Of a stretch of DNA of 44,149 bases, positions 7,522 to 44,146 are shown piece by piece; within the stretch, counting starts at the first letter, position 1; each line of letters opens with the position of its first letter. Under the pieces are notes generated by a model. It was given only the letters and a program-made list of their open reading frames with translations. It did no database searches and had not been told where the DNA came from. The DNA lies in IMG/VR virus record IMGVR_UViG_3300028393_000115, positions 1 to 44,149 of that record; one strand, 5' to 3'. The position numbers and the translations under genes are program-made. Origin of the DNA: a virus.

Positions 7522-7608
7522 TAGACTTACCCCTTCCCCTCTTGACAAGGACTAAAACGTATGGTACCCTAGGTATGGGCAGGCCGGAAACTTGTCCTGT
7601 ACCAACTT

Positions 7609-8136: not shown

Positions 8137-8369
8137 AATTGAGTTCCTTGGTTTTTTGCGGGTGTGGCAAGCACTTCGATGAGCTCGATTAGTTTTTGGA
8201 TGCGGCTGTTTGCTTCGCTCAACCTGTCGGCAAGCTCGTCGCGCTCCGCACGGGCCTGGGCGTCCTGGCTTTTCCAATATGACCGGATTGCATCGGCCCA
8301 GCCAAGATTATAAGCCCTGGTCGCGCTCTCATCTGTTTTGATCGCTTCCCTGTCGGTAATGTTATTCAT
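8133..8369 (-). CDS. 78-aa early protein with C-terminal coiled coil
   Basis: It begins with an ATG after GGAGAG. Residues 40-70 (ERDELADRLSEANSRIQKLIE) form a heptad-like helix. It is the first gene after intergenic element A (8414-8535), which carries a promoter-like motif. The end is coupled to the 67-aa gene. Function unknown. Confidence 0.7.
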   Translation of the reverse strand: MNNITDREAIKTDESATRAYNLGWADAIRSYWKSQDAQARAERDELADRLSEANSRIQKLIELIEVLATPAKNQGTQL

Positions 8370-8413
8370 TGTTTCTCTCCGTCAGTGGTTTACCTTCTAT
8401 TATCCGCCCACAC

Positions 8414-8441
8414 TTATTACCGGAGTGGATAATCCATCGAC
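8414..8441 (-). promoter_or_regulatory. Early promoter-like element A
   Basis: On minus: GTCGATGGATTATCCACTCC followed by GGTAATAAG. This is one of six related sites upstream of small early genes; TAATAA could be the -10 hexamer. It ends about 45 bases before the 78-aa gene. Confidence 0.5.
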
Positions 8442-8535
8442 CCCAAAGCACTAAACCAGAACGGTTTAGGTTCTGGCTGAGTGCCGCATTACGGATGCAT
8501 TACGCGCGTAAAAAAGAGGAAAAAGAGGAAGAAAT
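8414..8535. repeat. Dispersed intergenic repeat, copy A
   Basis: Starts with TTATTACCGGA and ATAATCCATCGAC, has CTGGCTGAGTGCC in the middle, and ends with GCATTACGCGCGTAAAAAAG and a purine-rich AGGAAAAAGAGGAAG run. Similar in order and sequence to copies B (9285-9421) and C (10853-10990). Confidence 0.65.
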
Positions 8536-8909: not shown

Positions 8910-9239
8910 TCAGAATGCTTTCGAGCCGATTCCGTAGATGGCCTTGTGCTGATCTTTGTAAGCAGCCAGTTCCTCGTAGTCAGCTGGATACTCATACGAC
9001 GACACTGCGGGGTAGAAGTTCTTCCCTTGTTTCTTGTACTGCTTGCCGATTTTGAAGTTATCGGCATCGTCGGAAGCGATCACCTCAAAAAACACCCAAT
9101 GCTTGTTATTAGAGTCGTAGCAACACATTTTTGTTATGCGGGCCGTGATGGTCACATCTTTGACAAACTTGGCACTAAATCGAGTGCCTGAAAAGATGGG
9201 AAACTTGGCCGCAAAAATGGTTCCGGTTACTGCGTTCAT
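8910..9239 (-). CDS. 109-aa early protein, unknown function
   Basis: A beta-rich sequence (GTIFAAKFPIFSGTRFSAKF, then VTITARITKMCCY) with a hydrophilic end (SSYEYPADYEELAAYKDQHK). It starts at an ATG with GAGGG upstream and follows element B. It resembles small accessory phage proteins but no family was recognised. Confidence 0.65.
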   Translation of the reverse strand: MNAVTGTIFAAKFPIFSGTRFSAKFVKDVTITARITKMCCYDSNNKHWVFFEVIASDDADNFKIGKQYKKQGKNFYPAVSSYEYPADYEELAAYKDQHKAIYGIGSKAF

Positions 9240-9284
9240 CGTTTGTCCCTCGTTTGTTCCTTACCGTCTCTTTTCCGTCTGTGT

Positions 9285-9311
9285 ATATTACCGGAATCAA
9301 TAATCCATCGA
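9285..9311 (-). promoter_or_regulatory. Early promoter-like element B
   Basis: On minus: GTCGATGGATTATTGATTCC followed by GGTAATATA and then ACAGACGGAAAAGAGACGG. TAATAT is a good -10 candidate. It lies about 45 bases before the 109-aa gene. Confidence 0.5.
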
Positions 9312-9421
9312 CACAAAGCATTCGGCCAGAACGGGTTAGATCGTCCTGGCTGAGTGCCAAGTTTGCGGCTGCATTACGCGCCCCCGTACACGCGCAAAAA
9401 GAAGGAAAAAGGGAAGATCCC
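9285..9421. repeat. Dispersed intergenic repeat, copy B
   Basis: Same order of blocks as copy A: TTACCGGAA, ATAATCCATCGAC, CCAGAACGG, CTGGCTGAGTGCC, GCATTACGCGC, then CGCGCAAAAAGAAGGAAAAA. Copies differ by small insertions. Confidence 0.65.
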
Positions 9422-9971: not shown

Positions 9972-10799
9972 TTAGTTTGAACTGAATTCCAAGGCCAGTG
10001 GCTTCACCAGATCATCCATGCTTGACCTGAATTCCACGTCGATGATTTCATCCATAGCCTGAATCAACCGACTTGTTTGCGTGGAATATTCTATGATCCG
10101 TTCGTTGGCACGCTGACGCATCGCCGTGGTCACCACGTTAAAGGTTGACCAGATCGTCGGTTTGCCTGAAAAATCCTCAAAGGTGGGGTTTTTAATCTCA
10201 TCCAAGACCGAACGAATCGAGCGTAAACCGATCACACCCGTATCAATCAAGGCCAGAATAAGCGCATCACGTTGAGTTACGCTTAAATCTTTTTTCATCC
10301 AGCTTTCAATCCGTTGACTCTCAAGTGCCTGATATTGTGGCAGGCGTTCAATCGCCGATCCTACTTGATTTCGGAAATCATCAAGCCCAAATCGTGTATG
10401 CTTCCGCTTGTATGAAATATCACCGGCGAACGCCAGATTTGAACAGACAAACACCTTGGAACCGGCCACAATGCCCAGTGGCAGGCGTTTATCGAACGAT
10501 GAACGAATTCCCAGACTCACCGTTGCGCCTCTACCCGGCGAATCCCATCGGGCCAGAGGTAACGCCAGATCAACCACACCGAATAGCCTTTGATCTGCCT
10601 TGGATACCGTCCAACGTTCGCTCCTGACCGTATACCCGGCTTCTCTGAGTGTCTGAATAGTGGTATTGGCAACGGTCACATGAGGAACCGGATACCACGA
10701 AGATGTAGCTTCCGGTGTAGCGATATTCGCCAGCTCAAATCGCTCAACATGGCGATCTCCCTTGGCGTGACTGACGACTCTTGACTCTGTAGCGATCAT
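9972..10799 (-). CDS. DUF932 family protein, 275 aa
   Basis: The core SLGIRSSFDKRLPLGIVAGS, FVCSNLAFAGDISYKRKHTR and FGLDDFRNQVGSAIERL match the DUF932/phage-plasmid-related family often found in early regions of phages and in plasmids. Its biochemical role is not established. The start has AAAGGA nine bases upstream. Intergenic element C lies upstream, so it probably has its own promoter. Confidence 0.8.
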   Translation of the reverse strand: MIATESRVVSHAKGDRHVERFELANIATPEATSSWYPVPHVTVANTTIQTLREAGYTVRSERWTVSKADQRLFGVVDLALPLARWDSPGRGATVSLGIRSSFDKRLPLGIVAGSKVFVCSNLAFAGDISYKRKHTRFGLDDFRNQVGSAIERLPQYQALESQRIESWMKKDLSVTQRDALILALIDTGVIGLRSIRSVLDEIKNPTFEDFSGKPTIWSTFNVVTTAMRQRANERIIEYSTQTSRLIQAMDEIIDVEFRSSMDDLVKPLALEFSSN

Positions 10800-16140: not shown

Positions 16141-16373
16141 TTCTGCTCCCCCGTATACTTCTCGAACTTACCCAATTCCATAATAGACATCGGGATTGAT
16201 CTATTAATCAGAAAGGCTTTAGCACTATCTGATGTCCACACAGCAATATGACCACTAGAACTTTTCTCATACTCACCCGTCTTATGAATCTTCCTACACC
16301 ACACAACAGGCCGTGACTCATCGACTACGGCATTAAACTTTGCCGCCAGTGCGTCTAATTCCTCTGTGCTCAT
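16137..16373 (-). CDS. 78-aa protein sharing its N-terminus with the DUF3310 gene
   Basis: Start at the ATGA overlap with the DUF551 copy upstream. N-terminus MSTEELDALAAKFNAVVDES is a close relative of the DUF3310 N-terminus (MSKEELDELLAKFNAES). The rest (VVWCRKIHKTGEYEKSSSGH) is unrelated and unassigned. Confidence 0.65.
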   Translation of the reverse strand: MSTEELDALAAKFNAVVDESRPVVWCRKIHKTGEYEKSSSGHIAVWTSDSAKAFLINRSIPMSIMELGKFEKYTGEQK

Positions 16374-16630
16374 GATATCGGCCTCCAATGTGTAGGCGTC
16401 TTGCCGACCTCTTGCGAAACTGGCCGAATGCATTTGCGGAAGATGCACCAGTATGCCGTTTTGCAATAACACCACTGCGGAGCCTCCCACTGCCGAGCCT
16501 CAGAATATTGCGCGTAGCGAAACTCGAACTCCTCGCCGCTGTCGCTGTCGGCATCCATGCGGACAAACACCGTCTGCCCCACTTCTGGAAGCTTTGCTGG
16601 ATCGTCTGTGATCTCAATCCATTCACTCAT
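16370..16630 (-). CDS. DUF551 paralogue 3, 86 aa
   Basis: Opens MSEWIEITDDPAKLPEVGQT and closes PVSQEVGKTPTHWRPIS, the DUF551 signature (Trp near the start, TH/TRW near the end). Start chosen at the ATGA junction with copy 2. DNA and protein similarity to copy 2 is very high. Function of the family is unknown. Confidence 0.8.
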   Translation of the reverse strand: MSEWIEITDDPAKLPEVGQTVFVRMDADSDSGEEFEFRYAQYSEARQWEAPQWCYCKTAYWCIFRKCIRPVSQEVGKTPTHWRPIS

Positions 16631-16887
16631 GCGATCGGCCTCCAGTGCGTGGGCGTCTTGCCGACCTCTTGCGAAACTGGCCGAATGCATTCGCGATAAC
16701 TACACCAGTATGCCGTTTTGCAATAACACCACTGCGGAGCCTCCCCCTGCCAGGCCTCAGAATATGGCGCGTATCGAAACCCGAACATCTGCCCGCCGCC
16801 GGTGTCGCCATCCATGCAAACAACCACTGTTTTGCCCAACTCCGGCAATGTTGCCGGATCGTCAGTGATCTCGATCCATCCACTCAT
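16627..16887 (-). CDS. DUF551 paralogue 2, 86 aa
   Basis: MSGWIEITDDPATLPELGKT at the start and IRPVSQEVGKTPTHWRPIA at the end; same length as copy 3 with no gaps. The middle varies (VCMDGDTGGGQMFGFRYAPY versus VRMDADSDSGEEFEFRYAQY). ATGA-coupled at both ends, so the three copies form one translation unit. Confidence 0.8.
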   Translation of the reverse strand: MSGWIEITDDPATLPELGKTVVVCMDGDTGGGQMFGFRYAPYSEAWQGEAPQWCYCKTAYWCSYRECIRPVSQEVGKTPTHWRPIA

Positions 16888-17219
16888 GATACTGGCCTCC
16901 AGCGCGTGGGTGTCTTGCCTGTCTCAAGCGAAACAGGCCTGATCGACTGACAAAAAACACTCCAGTAAGCTCTCTTGCAATAAAACCACTCCCATTCTTC
17001 GGGAATCCGCCCATCGCGCAATCCAAACTCCTCACCGCCGCCACTGTCGGCATTCATGCGGAGAATCACCGTCTGCCCTATTTCCGGTAGCGTTGCCGGA
17101 TCGTCAGTGATCTCGATCCACACCGGCTCTGGCTTCGCTTGCATCAGGTTGTAAACGGTCAGGGCCGCAGCCTTGGCCTCGCCATGCTCCAACGATGCGA
17201 TAAAATCAAGCGGTGTCAT
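16884..17219 (-). CDS. DUF551 paralogue 1 with N-terminal extension, 111 aa
   Basis: Residues 34-111 (WIEITDDPATLPEIGQTVIL ... GKTPTRWRPVS) are DUF551. Unlike the other copies it has an extra 33-residue helical N-terminus (TPLDFIASLEHGEAKAAALT). Its core is more diverged, so it is probably the parent from which copies 2 and 3 arose. Confidence 0.8.
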   Translation of the reverse strand: MTPLDFIASLEHGEAKAAALTVYNLMQAKPEPVWIEITDDPATLPEIGQTVILRMNADSGGGEEFGLRDGRIPEEWEWFYCKRAYWSVFCQSIRPVSLETGKTPTRWRPVS

Positions 17220-19468: not shown

Positions 19469-19532
19469 TTTGATACGTCCTGTAGTGATGAATGGGACGG
19501 TGAACAGCATTTTAATTCTTGCTGTCACAAAT

Positions 19533-19568
19533 GCCCTCAGTAGCCTTGAACGCTACGGGGGCTTTTTT
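19533..19568 (+). terminator. Strong rightward intrinsic terminator
   Basis: On plus: GCCC-TCA-GTAGC, loop CTTGAAC, GCTAC-GG-GGGC, then TTTTTT. The U-run is only on the plus strand, although all genes here are on minus, so it would stop antisense transcription. Confidence 0.7.
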
Positions 19569-19616
19569 GTCATCTAAGCGAGAATCATTACGATCATTCT
19601 GTCAATTACTGTTGTT

Positions 19617-19630
19617 CTGGTCAATACTAG
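19617..19630 (-). promoter_or_regulatory. Operator-like palindrome, site 3 (before replication gene)
   Basis: CTGGTCAATACTAG, between the 99-aa gene and the replication gene. On minus its TTGACC could be a -35 with CAGAAT 17 bases on, a weak match. Confidence 0.5.
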
Positions 19631-21095: not shown

Positions 21096-21305
21096 TCAGG
21101 ATGGACTGTTCTTAGTGAAAATGTTTGCTAAAATTGCGTCCTTTGCCTCAATTGGCTGTTTTAGAAACCAGTCGATAACCTGTCCGCAGAGCTTTCCAGG
21201 ATTCACTTCCCGCAGTTGGCTTGTTGGATTCTTAGCTAAATGACGAAGTTGTTCGTCACGTAATAGTTCAGGTCCACCCTCATTGAGCTTGATCGATACC
21301 TGCAT
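21096..21305 (-). CDS. First early gene, 69 aa, unknown function
   Basis: MQVSIKLNEGGPELLRDEQL ... PIEAKDAILANIFTKNSPS. It is the promoter-proximal gene of the leftward early transcript and is followed by a terminator-like hairpin. Such first genes are often host-takeover or antitermination factors, but nothing in the sequence shows this. Confidence 0.6.
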   Translation of the reverse strand: MQVSIKLNEGGPELLRDEQLRHLAKNPTSQLREVNPGKLCGQVIDWFLKQPIEAKDAILANIFTKNSPS

Positions 21306-21500: not shown

Positions 21501-21553
21501 AGTTTCAGCGGTCTAGGTTTTGAGAATGCCATGTGTTTTACGGAGCAAGGGTA

Positions 21554-21868
21554 ATGCAGACACCAGTAGATGAATCTCGTCTGACTCATCAGGTAGATGA
21601 GCGTGTAAAACAGAGACTAAAACCATCAGCAGAGTTTAGGCTTCACGCAAATTCTGTTGAGCCTGTGCAAAACGAAATCAGAAAACTTGCTGCTAGGCAA
21701 GTTTTTAAGGGCGAGACTGGAAAGTTGAAGGATCTGATAAACTATACCCTGCTTGCGCTTGTTGCGTATCCAGATTTAGCCGATAAGCTCTATACTGAGG
21801 GTAAAGCAATGTTCAACGAAACACTCAATACAGGAGTTGTTCCAAAACAGTTGACGAACCCGTCATAA
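21554..21868 (+). CDS. 104-aa protein of the integration cassette
   Basis: ATG at 21554 has GGAGCAAGGG upstream; a 7-residue longer frame lacks it. Sequence is hydrophilic and helical (DERVKQRLKPSAEFRLHANS, IRKLAARQVFKGETGKLKDL, then a more hydrophobic LINYTLLALVAYPDLADKL). No helix-turn-helix is clear. As the first gene facing the early promoter and sharing polarity with the integrase, it occupies the usual place of a lysogeny regulator, but the sequence does not prove this. Confidence 0.65.
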   Translation: MQTPVDESRLTHQVDERVKQRLKPSAEFRLHANSVEPVQNEIRKLAARQVFKGETGKLKDLINYTLLALVAYPDLADKLYTEGKAMFNETLNTGVVPKQLTNPS

Positions 21869-21987: not shown

Positions 21988-22029
21988 CTCCGGAGCAAAA
22001 GGTCCCCCGTTCAAATCGGGGCGGGTGTA
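21988..22029 (+). other. attP core: 3' half of tRNA-Arg(CCG)
   Basis: CTCCGGA is an anticodon loop (U33, anticodon CCG, G37). It is followed by GCAAA, AGGTC (variable loop), T-stem CCCCG, T-loop TTCAAAT, CGGGG, then acceptor strand CGGGTGT and discriminator A. The upstream bases cannot complete the anticodon stem, so no functional tRNA is present. A tRNA 3' half beside the integrase gene is the hallmark of a phage attachment site. No CCA is encoded. Confidence 0.8.
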
Positions 22030-22036
22030 TTTGGTT

Positions 22037-22059: not shown

Positions 22060-22133
22060 ATGGCATGGATGTTTAAATTGGTATTGGCTCGGATTGTTTG
22101 ACAAAGATGTTGAGAATCTTCGACGGTGGCGGC

Positions 22134-23222
22134 ATGTCAAGACCGCCTAACCCTATACCACGGTATGTCTTGCATAGTTCTGGCCGCGCCAGAATATACT
22201 TTGACAAGGTTTTTCAATACCTGCCAGGTTCTTATGGCTCGCTTGAGTCATGGGCACGGTATCATGAGCTTTGCGAGGTTGTCGCCGCAACAGGCAAGTT
22301 GCCATTGGATGATGCAAAAAAACAACATCCGTTGACCGTCTCTGAACTCGGACACCGATACTTGACCTATTGTGTCGAATACTATGGTTGTAACGGTGGT
22401 AGGACTAATGCTGTCAACCTCAAATATGCGGTCGAAGCGATCGCCTTGCTATTCGGATCGCGCCTGGCTGATTCGATAGGCCCTGCTGATATCAAGGCGG
22501 TTCGCAAGTCGTTGATCAATAAAGGAAGTGTGCGCCGGTCTGTCAATAAACGCGCCACTCAGATAGTGACCATGTTTAAGTGGTCAGTCGAGGAAGGATT
22601 GATCCCGGCTGAGGTCTGGCACCGATTGCAGGCTGTCAAGCCGATTGCGATCGGTCGAGAGGGTGCTGTTGATAACGAGCCTGTCAAGCCTGTCGATGAG
22701 GATGTCTTGGCCGCCACTCTTGCCGAGCTGCCACTGGACAAACAAGCCGCGATCAAGGTTCAACGCCTGACCGGCATGCGGTCCGGCGAACTGGTGAGGA
22801 TGATACCGAGCCAAGTTGATATGACCGGCCCGCATTGGATTTACACGTTGTCAAGCCATAAAACCCGTTCGCATATTGGCGACACCTTCATTTTGATCCC
22901 CGCCCCTGCTGTGGCCATCCTCTTGGATTGCATGCCTGCCAAGCCTGATCAGCCTTGGTTCCCGTGGTCTGTGGACTGGCAAGGCAAGTCTGTGGCGTTT
23001 GCGGCAAAACGTGCCGGCGTTGCCCATTGGCATCCGCATCAGTTGCGGCACAATCTGGCAACCGAAATTGCCGAGCGGATCGGGTTGGAAGCGGCTCAGA
23101 AGGTTCTCAGGCACACCAATTCAAAGATGACAAGGACCTATGCTCGCGACACAATTGACGGTTTAAAGTCTGTAGCCGATAGGCTTTATATAAATTTCGG
23201 CAAGGTAGAGGAGGGGTCGTAA
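22134..23222 (+). CDS. int: Tyrosine-family site-specific integrase, 362 aa
   Basis: The catalytic set is complete: R216 in TGMRSGEL, K243 in SHKTR, H302-x-x-R305 in HQLRHNL, H327 in LRHTN, and the nucleophile Y336 in TRTYAR. The N-terminal region (PPNPIPRYVLHSSGRARIYF, then PGSYGSLESWARYHELCEVV) is the arm-binding domain in a style I associate with Planctomycetota integrases. A SAM-like core-binding domain spans about 65-165. It recombines attP with host tRNA-Arg. Start chosen at the ATG preceding SRPPNP; ATG 22107 and TTG 22098 are alternatives. Confidence 0.95.
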   Translation: MSRPPNPIPRYVLHSSGRARIYFDKVFQYLPGSYGSLESWARYHELCEVVAATGKLPLDDAKKQHPLTVSELGHRYLTYCVEYYGCNGGRTNAVNLKYAVEAIALLFGSRLADSIGPADIKAVRKSLINKGSVRRSVNKRATQIVTMFKWSVEEGLIPAEVWHRLQAVKPIAIGREGAVDNEPVKPVDEDVLAATLAELPLDKQAAIKVQRLTGMRSGELVRMIPSQVDMTGPHWIYTLSSHKTRSHIGDTFILIPAPAVAILLDCMPAKPDQPWFPWSVDWQGKSVAFAAKRAGVAHWHPHQLRHNLATEIAERIGLEAAQKVLRHTNSKMTRTYARDTIDGLKSVADRLYINFGKVEEGS

Positions 23223-23240
23223 AGGCAGGTTAGCAGAGTT

Positions 23241-23477: not shown

Positions 23478-23681
23478 GGTCGCTTTCTTGTTTAATGGAT
23501 CACGCTTGCTGATCGCTCAATCACGCCTAGATTGATTTGTTTGGGTCGTGAAGTCAATGTCAACGGTCTTCCACACGATCAGCACTGTCAGAACACTACA
23601 GTCTACGTGTCCAGAATAGTTGCTATAACAAGCAACAAGTTCAATGGCTATGCATTCGGAAAACATAGTCTATCATAGATC

Positions 23682-23695
23682 TTGGTATTGACCAA
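23682..23695 (+). promoter_or_regulatory. Operator-like palindrome, site 4 (over ncRNA promoter)
   Basis: CTTGGT-ATTG-ACCAAG (23681-23696) is the most perfect copy, with 6-bp arms. It covers the -35 TTGACC. Confidence 0.6.
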
Positions 23696-23716
23696 GACAA
23701 AAACGTGTGCAATAAT
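23688..23716 (+). promoter_or_regulatory. Promoter of the orphan RNA
   Basis: TTGACC (23688-23693), 17-base spacer, AATAAT (23711-23716); predicted start near 23723. Confidence 0.6.
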
Positions 23717-23722
23717 TATTTT

Positions 23723-23913
23723 TCACAAGAACCGGCGAAGGCCGGATGCGACGTGACCAATTGGCACTTTGCTAAAAGGTTGCAGAGCAAAATAAGAGGT
23801 CATTCAAAGATTTTTGGGTAGTTGTTTCTGTGGATTTCTCTCGGTTTGGTTGTTCTATGTATTGCTGCCTTTTCGACCATTGGCGGATTTAAGAGGTCTT
23901 TCAATGGTTTTTT
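23723..23913 (+). ncRNA. Candidate orphan small RNA, about 190 nt
   Basis: Bounded by the promoter above and the terminator below, with no ORF. Near the 5' end CCGGC-GAAG-GCCGG (23732-23745) is a perfect hairpin. A 14-base element AAGAGGTC-W-TTCAA occurs once in the body and once in the terminator loop. It is transcribed against the direction of all late genes. Candidate roles are an antisense or trans-acting RNA, or a CsrA-binding decoy. No known RNA family was recognised. Confidence 0.5.
23876..23913 (+). terminator. Intrinsic terminator of the orphan RNA
   Basis: ACCATTG (23876-23882) pairs with CAATGGT (23902-23908), with a long loop containing AAGAGGTCTT, followed by five further T. The U-run is on the plus strand only. 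Confidence 0.6.
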
Positions 23914-23941
23914 GTTATTAAATCCTGTTTATACTTGTAGT

Positions 23942-24994
23942 TTATGACCAAGTATAGGTTACGTTTGCGGTAGTCAGAATGGTTTCATATGGACCAGTCT
24001 CCAAGGCAAAATCGTAATCGACCAGGGTTATTTTACTTGCAACTGTGATGTTTCCACTACCAATAAAAAGGTTCTCTCTCCAGTCAAATGCGTAAGGGTC
24101 GATTTGAAAACCAATGTAAACATACCTTGGGTTTAGGTTTGTATTCCTCCCCCTTTTGCCAAAAGCACCAACGCCTATGCCGAATGGTATCGGGTATAGG
24201 CCATATCCGCTGCCATCGGGCCGCATTAACCCGGAAATTGCGTTGAATCCACCTAATACATTATCCCAGTACAGTTGAGTTACTACGCCCCAGGCGTATT
24301 CCGATCTCCAACTTCCAGATGCGTTCACTATGTTATATGTCCAGTAATCAGTATACATGCTTGGCTGGTTCTCTTGCCCGCCCTGAAGCTTTGTTAGATT
24401 AAAGGTGCGTCCGTTCATATAATCCATGTAATCATTAAGAAGATAAAGATATTGTAACGTAGGTACTTGAGTCATATTTATACTATTGTTGGCTCTCGCC
24501 CTTAAAGATGTGTCCCAGCTCGCCATGACAGACAGCGTGCTAAAGTTCCACGGGTATAGATTTGATGTGGGACGATTATTTGTACTACTGAGTTTCAAAA
24601 AAAAAATCCACTGACTTGTGTCAGCGTTCCACTTTGCAGGATATCGTGTTGCCCCTATCCCCACATCATCATTGTTTAGTCCGGTTGCCGGATGGTAGTC
24701 AAGTGTTCCAGAATCTCCGTTGTCGATCCAGACGTACCCCTGTTGAGTCGCCAGCTTGACTTGTCGTCGCCATCCAAAGAAGATTTGCCCGTTTGCAACC
24801 CCTCTTGAGGTCATCCTGATCCAGATAAGTTCACCCGTTACGGTTGGATCTTCTTGAGTTTGATTACGACTTGGCAAACTATATCCAGCCTGGCCCTGAG
24901 CAGCCAGTTGAGTTAGCGACTGATTTACAGAAAAATCCTTCATATTGCGGAGTTGCTGTTCGACTTCGCTCATCCAGCTTTCGTTCGGCCCCAT
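23942..24994 (-). CDS. Tail-tip or virion protein, 350 aa
   Basis: Last gene of the late block, with GAGGTGATTC before the ATG. Gln-rich helical N-terminus (SEVEQQLRNMKDFSVNQSLT), then Trp/Tyr/Asn-rich beta structure (ELIWIRMTSRGVANGQIFFG, TLQYLYLLNDYMDYMNGRTF). No enzyme motif. Placed behind the tail hub protein, it is probably a distal tail component. Confidence 0.7.
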   Translation of the reverse strand: MGPNESWMSEVEQQLRNMKDFSVNQSLTQLAAQGQAGYSLPSRNQTQEDPTVTGELIWIRMTSRGVANGQIFFGWRRQVKLATQQGYVWIDNGDSGTLDYHPATGLNNDDVGIGATRYPAKWNADTSQWIFFLKLSSTNNRPTSNLYPWNFSTLSVMASWDTSLRARANNSINMTQVPTLQYLYLLNDYMDYMNGRTFNLTKLQGGQENQPSMYTDYWTYNIVNASGSWRSEYAWGVVTQLYWDNVLGGFNAISGLMRPDGSGYGLYPIPFGIGVGAFGKRGRNTNLNPRYVYIGFQIDPYAFDWRENLFIGSGNITVASKITLVDYDFALETGPYETILTTANVTYTWS

Positions 24995-33897: not shown

Positions 33898-34725
33898 CTA
33901 GTCGTTGCTTTGTATATTTGCACCGTTGGCCACAGCTTGAGCCAACGCACCCTGATTTTGCGCCAACCATGCAGGGTCACGAAACCTTGCAGTAACAGTT
34001 GGTGAAATAGTAGGTGCCGGCCCGCCGCGACCTTGTAAATCGCCATAACCACGAAATTGCAGAGACGGTGTTTGAGGAGGCTGATACCCGTTAGCTTGTG
34101 GCATTGGGGGTCTCTGAGCCTGTGGGGATGGCATCCCGTTTCCTTGAGGTGCCATTTGCGGTTGCGGTTCAGCGAACATTTGCCGTTCTGGTTGTTGTTG
34201 CTGAACTGCGCCGTTCTCAAACGCTTGCGTCATCTGATTGGGTATGGAATTATCTGTTGGTTCGGCCTGAGTGTTTTGACTCGAAACACTCTGGAAAAGT
34301 TGGGGAAACTCGTCGAATGCTATTGAAAGCACATGCTGGATAATTTCCGGTGTCAAGTTATCGACATCCTCCGGATTGTATCCAACGGCACGCAAAATTT
34401 GCGTGGGCGTAACCCCTTCAGCTAGATAACCATCAAGCGCGCTCTTGAATTGGTTTTCATGCTGTGTCCACGATTGCTGACTTCTGTAGTCTTGATACTC
34501 GTTATACTGCTCATCCGTGTATTGAAGTCTAGGGTCGGCTTTCATATCCGTGTAAGCCGTTGCAAGCTGCCGCAGAAGGTTATCGCCCTCCACTTTAGCC
34601 GCCCTGATTTCCTCAAGTTCTTTCTCCATTCTCTGCTTTGCAGCACGGTAACGCTTTACCATGCTATTCTGCTTGGCATAGAGGTGATAAGGAACTGGTT
34701 GACCATCAAAACCACTGTCAGACAT
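33898..34725 (-). CDS. Scaffolding protein, 275 aa
   Basis: Charged helical N-terminal half (SMVKRYRAAKQRMEKELEEI, then QYNEYQDYRSQQSWTQHENQ) with coiled-coil heptads, and a Pro/Gln-rich disordered C-terminal half ending in a basic segment (TVTARFRDPAWLAQNQ) that could bind coat protein. Directly before the capsid gene. This is the standard scaffold arrangement. No protease domain is fused to it. Confidence 0.8.
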   Translation of the reverse strand: MSDSGFDGQPVPYHLYAKQNSMVKRYRAAKQRMEKELEEIRAAKVEGDNLLRQLATAYTDMKADPRLQYTDEQYNEYQDYRSQQSWTQHENQFKSALDGYLAEGVTPTQILRAVGYNPEDVDNLTPEIIQHVLSIAFDEFPQLFQSVSSQNTQAEPTDNSIPNQMTQAFENGAVQQQQPERQMFAEPQPQMAPQGNGMPSPQAQRPPMPQANGYQPPQTPSLQFRGYGDLQGRGGPAPTISPTVTARFRDPAWLAQNQGALAQAVANGANIQSND

Positions 34726-43616: not shown

Positions 43617-44146
43617 TTTGTCGCCTCCCTATTCTTCTTGCGGTATTCCCAAGGTGCAATAGTATTAGGATCGCTCCAGATACCTATCTTGGCTGCTTTG
43701 GCCTTGGCTTGTGCCGATTGCAATTCGGTATCGTGCTTGGCATATTGTTCGTACCAGTGTGCCATGCCCAATTCGACCATGGCCGTATTGATATCCACAC
43801 CATCGCATTTGATGCGGGCTACGGTACGGCCATAAGTCTTGGCATTTGTTTCGGTTATTACCGTCACCTTTTTGCCATAAATGAGTTGCGACAGTTTGGC
43901 ACGAGCGATAAAGCCGTATGGTTGCGTACCATTATTATACTTGGTTTCGACTCGTTTCCCATCAACGATTTTTGTGCTGACTTTGATTTCAGGACAGTCG
44001 ATACCATAAAGCCGGATTTCGATTTTATCGGGTTCGCCCGGAACTGTGACTTTGATTGTGTCGCCATCGTGTACATCGGTGACGGTGGCTTCGTAAGGCG
44101 GTGGTATGAACGCAAAAATCAGCGTTGCGAGGGTTGCAATGATCAT
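43613..44146 (-). CDS. Staphylococcal-nuclease-family secreted nuclease, 177 aa
   Basis: Signal-like N-terminus (MIIATLATLIFAFIPPPYE), then the SNase fold with its full active set: D29 in VHDGDTIKV, R45, D50 and E53 in IRLYGIDCPE, R107 in TYGRTVARI. Metal-dependent hydrolysis of DNA/RNA, probably outside the cytoplasm. It leads the lysis-like cassette, coupled to a holin-like gene. In the reversed circle it may be the same gene as the left-edge fragment. Confidence 0.92.
   Translation of the reverse strand: MIIATLATLIFAFIPPPYEATVTDVHDGDTIKVTVPGEPDKIEIRLYGIDCPEIKVSTKIVDGKRVETKYNNGTQPYGFIARAKLSQLIYGKKVTVITETNAKTYGRTVARIKCDGVDINTAMVELGMAHWYEQYAKHDTELQSAQAKAKAAKIGIWSDPNTIAPWEYRKKNREATK

Follow-up and report, generated by a model that had tools for sequence, protein, structure and literature searches.

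The window analyzed here is the complete 44,149-base virus record of an uncultured phage. A gap of 464 bases separates a small leftward ORF, for which no family was found, from the last gene of the leftward late operon, whose product is probably a tail protein, and a candidate RNA unit lies inside this gap (Table 1). The unit is on the plus strand and the late genes are on the minus strand; it is thus directed against them, as had been stated in an earlier note on this DNA. The terminator of the unit closes 28 bases before the end of the last late gene. A 128-base stretch recurs at both ends of the record (1–128 and 44019–44146) with 90% identity, which reads as a diverged terminal duplication. 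A tandem array of ~250-base units (70–76% identical) occupies 16369–17120, inside small leftward ORFs, and a further diverged repeat pair is found at 8365–8532 and 9235–9417. In the reference phage collection, the 829-aa marker protein of the phage family was without any match.

Table 1. Features of the gap and its neighbors, and the remaining copies of the directional motif in the window. All motif copies lie in gene gaps or at gene starts.
Feature	Position	Strand	Details
Tyrosine integrase gene	22098..23222	+	Pfam PF00589, 8e-14; PHROG 1, 1.6e-31; convergent with the late operon
Small ORF, 78 aa	23241..23477	−	Relatives have small ORFs at the matching place (coiled-coil-like, CxxC)
Candidate leftward promoter, TTGTCT-17-TATGAT	23672..23700	−	Towards the small ORF; 9/12; −35 overlaps the 23680 motif copy
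Motif copy, operator-like, TCTTGGTATTGACCAAGACAAAAA	23680..23703	+	Relatives-only matrix score 24.0 (shuffle peak 16.6)
Candidate rightward sigma70-type promoter, TTGACC-17-AATAAT with TGn	23688..23716	+	10/12; extended −10; −35 is the motif core
Predicted RNA, ~190 nt	23723..23914	+	Deduced from promoter and terminator; start set 7 nt past the −10
Perfect 5-bp GC hairpin, CCGGC-GAAG-GCCGG	23732..23745		5' part of the predicted RNA; followed by TTCTTGTG on the minus strand
Repeat copy I, GTGACCAATTGGC ... AAGAGGTCATTCAAAGATTTTTG	23753..23818	+	39-nt direct repeat, 74% with copy II; similarity of the 5' arm seen by eye
Intrinsic terminator, repeat copy II	23875..23914	+	15 pairs interrupted by a single 1x1 loop; triloop AAG; T-run downstream
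Last gene of the late operon, 350 aa	23942..24994	−	N-terminus conserved and C-terminus variable across relatives
Motif copy	5462	−	
Motif copy	7607	+	
Motif copy	19609	−	
Motif copy	34762	−	
Motif copy	40350	−	

The promoter match TTGACC-N17-AATAAT described in the earlier note was present, with TG in front of the −10 hexamer. When the 464-bp gap was shuffled, the expected number of such sites was 0.009 with the TG and 0.13 without it. As TTGACC is the core of a motif that recurs across the phage family, the −35 hexamer is not independent evidence and only the −10 hexamer is; the chance of finding a −10 with at least 5/6 matches at a spacing of 16–18 after the motif was 1.3%.

The perfect 5' hairpin and the intrinsic terminator reported for the unit were both recovered. 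The terminator (23875–23909 plus the T-run) had a folding energy of −13.8 kcal/mol (z −4.1) and ranked fourth among the 137 T5 runs on both strands of the window; among 60 shuffled gaps, only one had a T5 run with a hairpin at least as low as −12 kcal/mol. A 14-base element had been placed in the RNA body and again in the terminator loop. Its copies at 23794–23807 and 23891–23904 are the two exact ones of the window, and the body copy stands as described, but the second copy consists of the final loop bases and the 3' arm of the terminator stem. A repeat of 13/14 bases was found in approximately 1% of gap shuffles. The repeat looks more like two copies of one hairpin-plus-T-run, of which copy I carries an insertion and is possibly a decayed first terminator. 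Read on the minus strand, the 5' hairpin followed by TTCTTGTG resembles a weak terminator that would serve the late operon. The fold of the whole RNA body was unremarkable (z −2.35), with 8.7% of the window tiles scoring as well against their shuffles.

Within 23682–23913, there is no complete ORF of at least 60 codons. The absence of an ORF, as claimed earlier, is therefore correct for long frames, but short open frames exist at 23681–23821 and 23822–23947. The former is a 46-codon open stretch with a borderline codon score and without ATG; the latter, a TTG-started frame of 41 codons, scored as non-coding. Between the promoter match and the terminator, nothing is convincingly coding.

The motif at 23680 was analyzed across the window and six related records. 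It is directional and approximately 20 bases long, with the consensus (C/T)GGTATTGACCRGnACMC, and it is conserved at the centre (A-T-T-R) and in the 3' flank ((A)C), while its arms are often unpaired. A matrix was trained on the relatives only and applied to the window, with 40 shuffled windows as the control (peak score of 16.6). Six window sites beat every shuffle, with scores of 17.1–28.1. The earlier note had described the −35 region as covered by the best copy of a phage-wide palindrome; the motif is indeed there, and the 23680 copy is the sole perfect 6+4+6 palindrome, but the motif is directional and this copy ranks third by matrix score. A palindromic operator was dropped as an idea because the centre and flank are asymmetric, and an operator acting as an RNA hairpin was dropped because the arms are often unpaired. 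A T7-like promoter was also considered, as GGG follows the motif in some copies; no single-subunit RNA polymerase was found using PF00940, and since the control search was matchless too, this absence is unproven. No family was found for two candidate regulator ORFs (21096–21305 and 21533–21868).

In the window, the motif also stands in front of late genes, namely the portal gene (5462) and the genes starting at 34725 and 40331, which is consistent with the control shared with late genes that had been proposed for the RNA unit. Two sites, 7607 and 23680, have the reverse orientation, and some of the weaker motif hits fall inside ORFs. The reversed copy at 7607 is found immediately beyond a leftward TTGACA-18-AATACT promoter located ahead of the terminase genes, and a motif copy of the related record G002 at 10278 apparently occupies the matching place.

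At a matrix score above 17, the seven records contained 49 motif hits, 35 of them distinct. Family-wide, many copies lie 25–36 bases upstream of the start codon of a gene on the same strand, which is too close for them to act as the −35 of that gene. At some copies, a −10-like hexamer follows TTGACC at a spacing of 17; this was observed for 6 of the 35 distinct sites (two of the six are orthologous), compared with an average of approximately 0.8 at other spacings. As these hexamers pile up at a spacing of 17, some motif copies are probably promoters, and the rightward promoter at 23680 gains support from the family-wide recurrence of this spacing. The motif is thus probably an operator-like site that doubles as a −35 in places, 23680 among these. 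This motif network is a sturdier result than the RNA unit.

The gap with matching neighbors was present in G002 and its close kin (G003 and G007), in G004, and in G005. All of these relatives carry the motif in the gap, oriented as it is in the window. A leftward promoter at the gap motif was observed in three distinct types of relatives (TTGATC-17-TATTCT once and TTGACG-17-TATACT twice; 8–10/12). No rightward promoter using the gap motif was observed in the relatives; elsewhere in its gap, G005 shows a single rightward match of 9/12. In G005, a methyltransferase-like gene comes before the small ORF downstream of the leftward promoter. This gene, identified by eye as DNA cytosine methyltransferase-like, occupies 3858–4808 of L007 in the gap between the tail gene and the small ORF, and its presence there indicates that the gap takes up cargo in this phage family.

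No DNA similar to the RNA body was found in the relatives covering the gap. Searches of reference phages, plasmids, and viral contigs, for which the 14-mer pair, the terminator, and the 5' hairpin also served as queries, returned no homologue of the RNA beyond one near-identical contig (99.95% identity over 22 kb, with zero differences in the RNA stretch). Three matches in the genome collection were repeats or repeat-coding DNA and were rejected as homologues. Three matches to the terminator pattern were likewise rejected, as all three lay within homologues of a single gene, a nucleotide-sugar-enzyme-like ORF, in other phages. The Rfam covariance models had no match in the window at an E-value of up to 1. 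As the motif is found in the gaps of the relatives and the RNA is absent there, the collections searched point to an old operator and a lineage-specific RNA unit. The RNA sequence is a singleton, and hence nothing shows selection on the RNA. The phage small RNA proposed in the earlier note therefore survives as a candidate self-contained, rightward, RNA-only unit, but its conservation is unsupported and no diverged homologue exists in these collections. That note had named stems unconserved in homologous phages as one outcome that would speak against its proposal, and the situation found is close to this, with relatives that carry the gap motif and lack the RNA. We regard the RNA as a plausible but unproven singleton.

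The best explanation for these features, to which we give slightly less than even weight, is an operator-controlled, lineage-specific, RNA-only transcription unit that is antisense to the 3' end of the late mRNA. A phage-encoded DNA-binding regulator would occupy the directional motif at 23680. When this regulator is absent, host RNA polymerase would start rightward at approximately 23723 and stop at the terminator at 23914, and the resulting RNA of ~190 nt would stay untranslated. As late transcription would cross the same DNA leftward, the RNA would have full complementarity to the late mRNA in its 3' untranslated end; this complementarity to the opposing transcript follows from the layout if the late mRNA extends past 23942. 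The most likely effect would be a local one, namely a boundary shielding the late genes from rightward transcription, with the RNA also acting as an antisense partner, or as an opponent at the level of transcription, when late transcripts read through into the small ORF and the integrase gene. The window bears both leftward and rightward promoter matches at the 23680 motif. The operator overlaps the leftward small-ORF promoter too, and the relatives suggest that control of this promoter was the older function of the operator.

The nearest competing explanation, quite possible if doubtful, is an ordinary boundary where two convergent operons meet. Here, the motif would be the operator of the leftward small-ORF promoter, the rightward match would be accidental, and there would be no dedicated small RNA; the terminator and the decayed copy I would stop integrase transcripts, and the 5' hairpin would be the leftward terminator of the late operon. 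The gap motif of the relatives has leftward promoters only, which fits such a boundary. In addition, the minus-strand TTCTTGTG after the 5' hairpin resembles an arrangement in G002, where a strong hairpin (−23.8 kcal/mol) is followed by TTGTTCTTGT in the matching direction. A simple scan found no terminator-like site between the end of the integrase gene and the terminator at 23875–23914, and the 39-nt repeat takes in the T-run, as a duplicated terminator would. What speaks against an accidental rightward promoter is the low chance of a 5/6 −10 at the proper spacing, the extended −10, and the other motif copies that have the same −10 spacing.

It is distinctly improbable that the RNA acts in trans as an antisense or decoy RNA, with the repeated AAGAGGTCWTTCAA as the active element for pairing with messages of the phage or host or for binding a protein. 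The unit is discrete, the repeated 14-mer is rare in shuffles, and 13/14 bases are complementary between the stop-codon region of the integrase gene (23215–23228) and the stretch before the terminator (23865–23878). However, the RNA shows no conservation in the collections searched and belongs to no Rfam family, and the terminator stem engages the second of the 14-mer copies. The trans-antisense or decoy function suggested earlier was not borne out in the phage genome, which gave no target signal; the best duplex there (−58.8) was stronger than that of a single one among seven shuffled RNAs (range, −55.8 to −68.0).

It is very improbable that the unit is a short-peptide gene with the hairpins as its leader. 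The 41-codon frame is open and would encode a hydrophobic, membrane-like peptide, but its codon score (−0.54) is below the 5th percentile of coding sequences (−0.06), its TTG start has no visible ribosome site, the frame traverses the terminator, and T-rich DNA yields such peptides by chance. A part of the attachment site with the 14-mers as integrase arm sites is scarcely credible. Direct repeats near an integrase gene and a tRNA-end-like sequence in the gap of G002-type relatives would fit it, but the repeats form a terminator, and the tRNA-end-like sequence of the window lies 1.7 kb away, upstream of the integrase gene.

The latter sequence was recognized by eye at approximately 22000–22035, where GGTCCCCCGTTCAAATCGGGGCGGGTG resembles a tRNA 3' end just upstream of the integrase gene and is a candidate attP core. 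Another candidate attP is a tRNA-like sequence of ~58 bases at ~11530–11595 of L005, in the G002-type gap between the tail gene and the small ORF. It has GTCACA...TGTGAC ends and a TTCGATT loop, and ARAGORN called no tRNA there.

In cluster A mycobacteriophages (L5, Bxb1, and TipsytheTRex), short asymmetric operators or stoperators are scattered over the genome. They occupy promoters and short intergenic gaps and mostly face the same way with respect to transcription (PMC9283540, PMC6550527). The window motif is similarly asymmetric, with many sites in promoters or short gaps before start codons on the same strand. As in cluster A, some copies overlap a promoter −35, while others, 25–36 bases before a start codon, have no visible promoter at that spacing. 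In contrast, its consensus is unrelated, and there are six strong sites here versus more than 20 in L5 and 26 in TipsytheTRex (PMC9283540). The resemblance is one of layout, and the motif system is not classed as a stoperator system. A stoperator-like network in which one controlled unit yields nothing but an RNA, one that would mark the late-operon end and police it, is unlikely in this full form.

Lambda OOP RNA, aQ, and P22 sar are short, independently promoted, and terminated RNAs directed against a phage operon (PMC12197685). The candidate RNA appears similar in being short, with its own promoter match and terminator, and in opposing a phage operon; however, OOP, aQ, and sar pair with the mRNA of named genes (cII, Q, and ant, respectively), whereas the candidate RNA can pair only with a 3' untranslated end. 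DicF, PreS, and VpdS are trans-acting small RNAs of phages and prophages with defined targets; PreS and VpdS bind Hfq (PMC12197685), and DicF controls metabolism and cell division (PMC5069750). The candidate, predicted here from sequence, would likewise be an RNA-only gene in a temperate phage, but it has no Rfam match.

If the RNA is real, it would be a noncoding member of a one-motif phage regulon, and its expression would be predictable from the motif. The motif is a first handle on gene control in this uncultured temperate phage family and points to promoters and genes. Elsewhere in the window, the gap at 19528–19627 contains a motif copy with a leftward TTGACC-17-CAGAAT. Its T5-run terminator hairpin (19533–19563) is the top-ranked one in the window, and it is possible that this gap is another short RNA unit.
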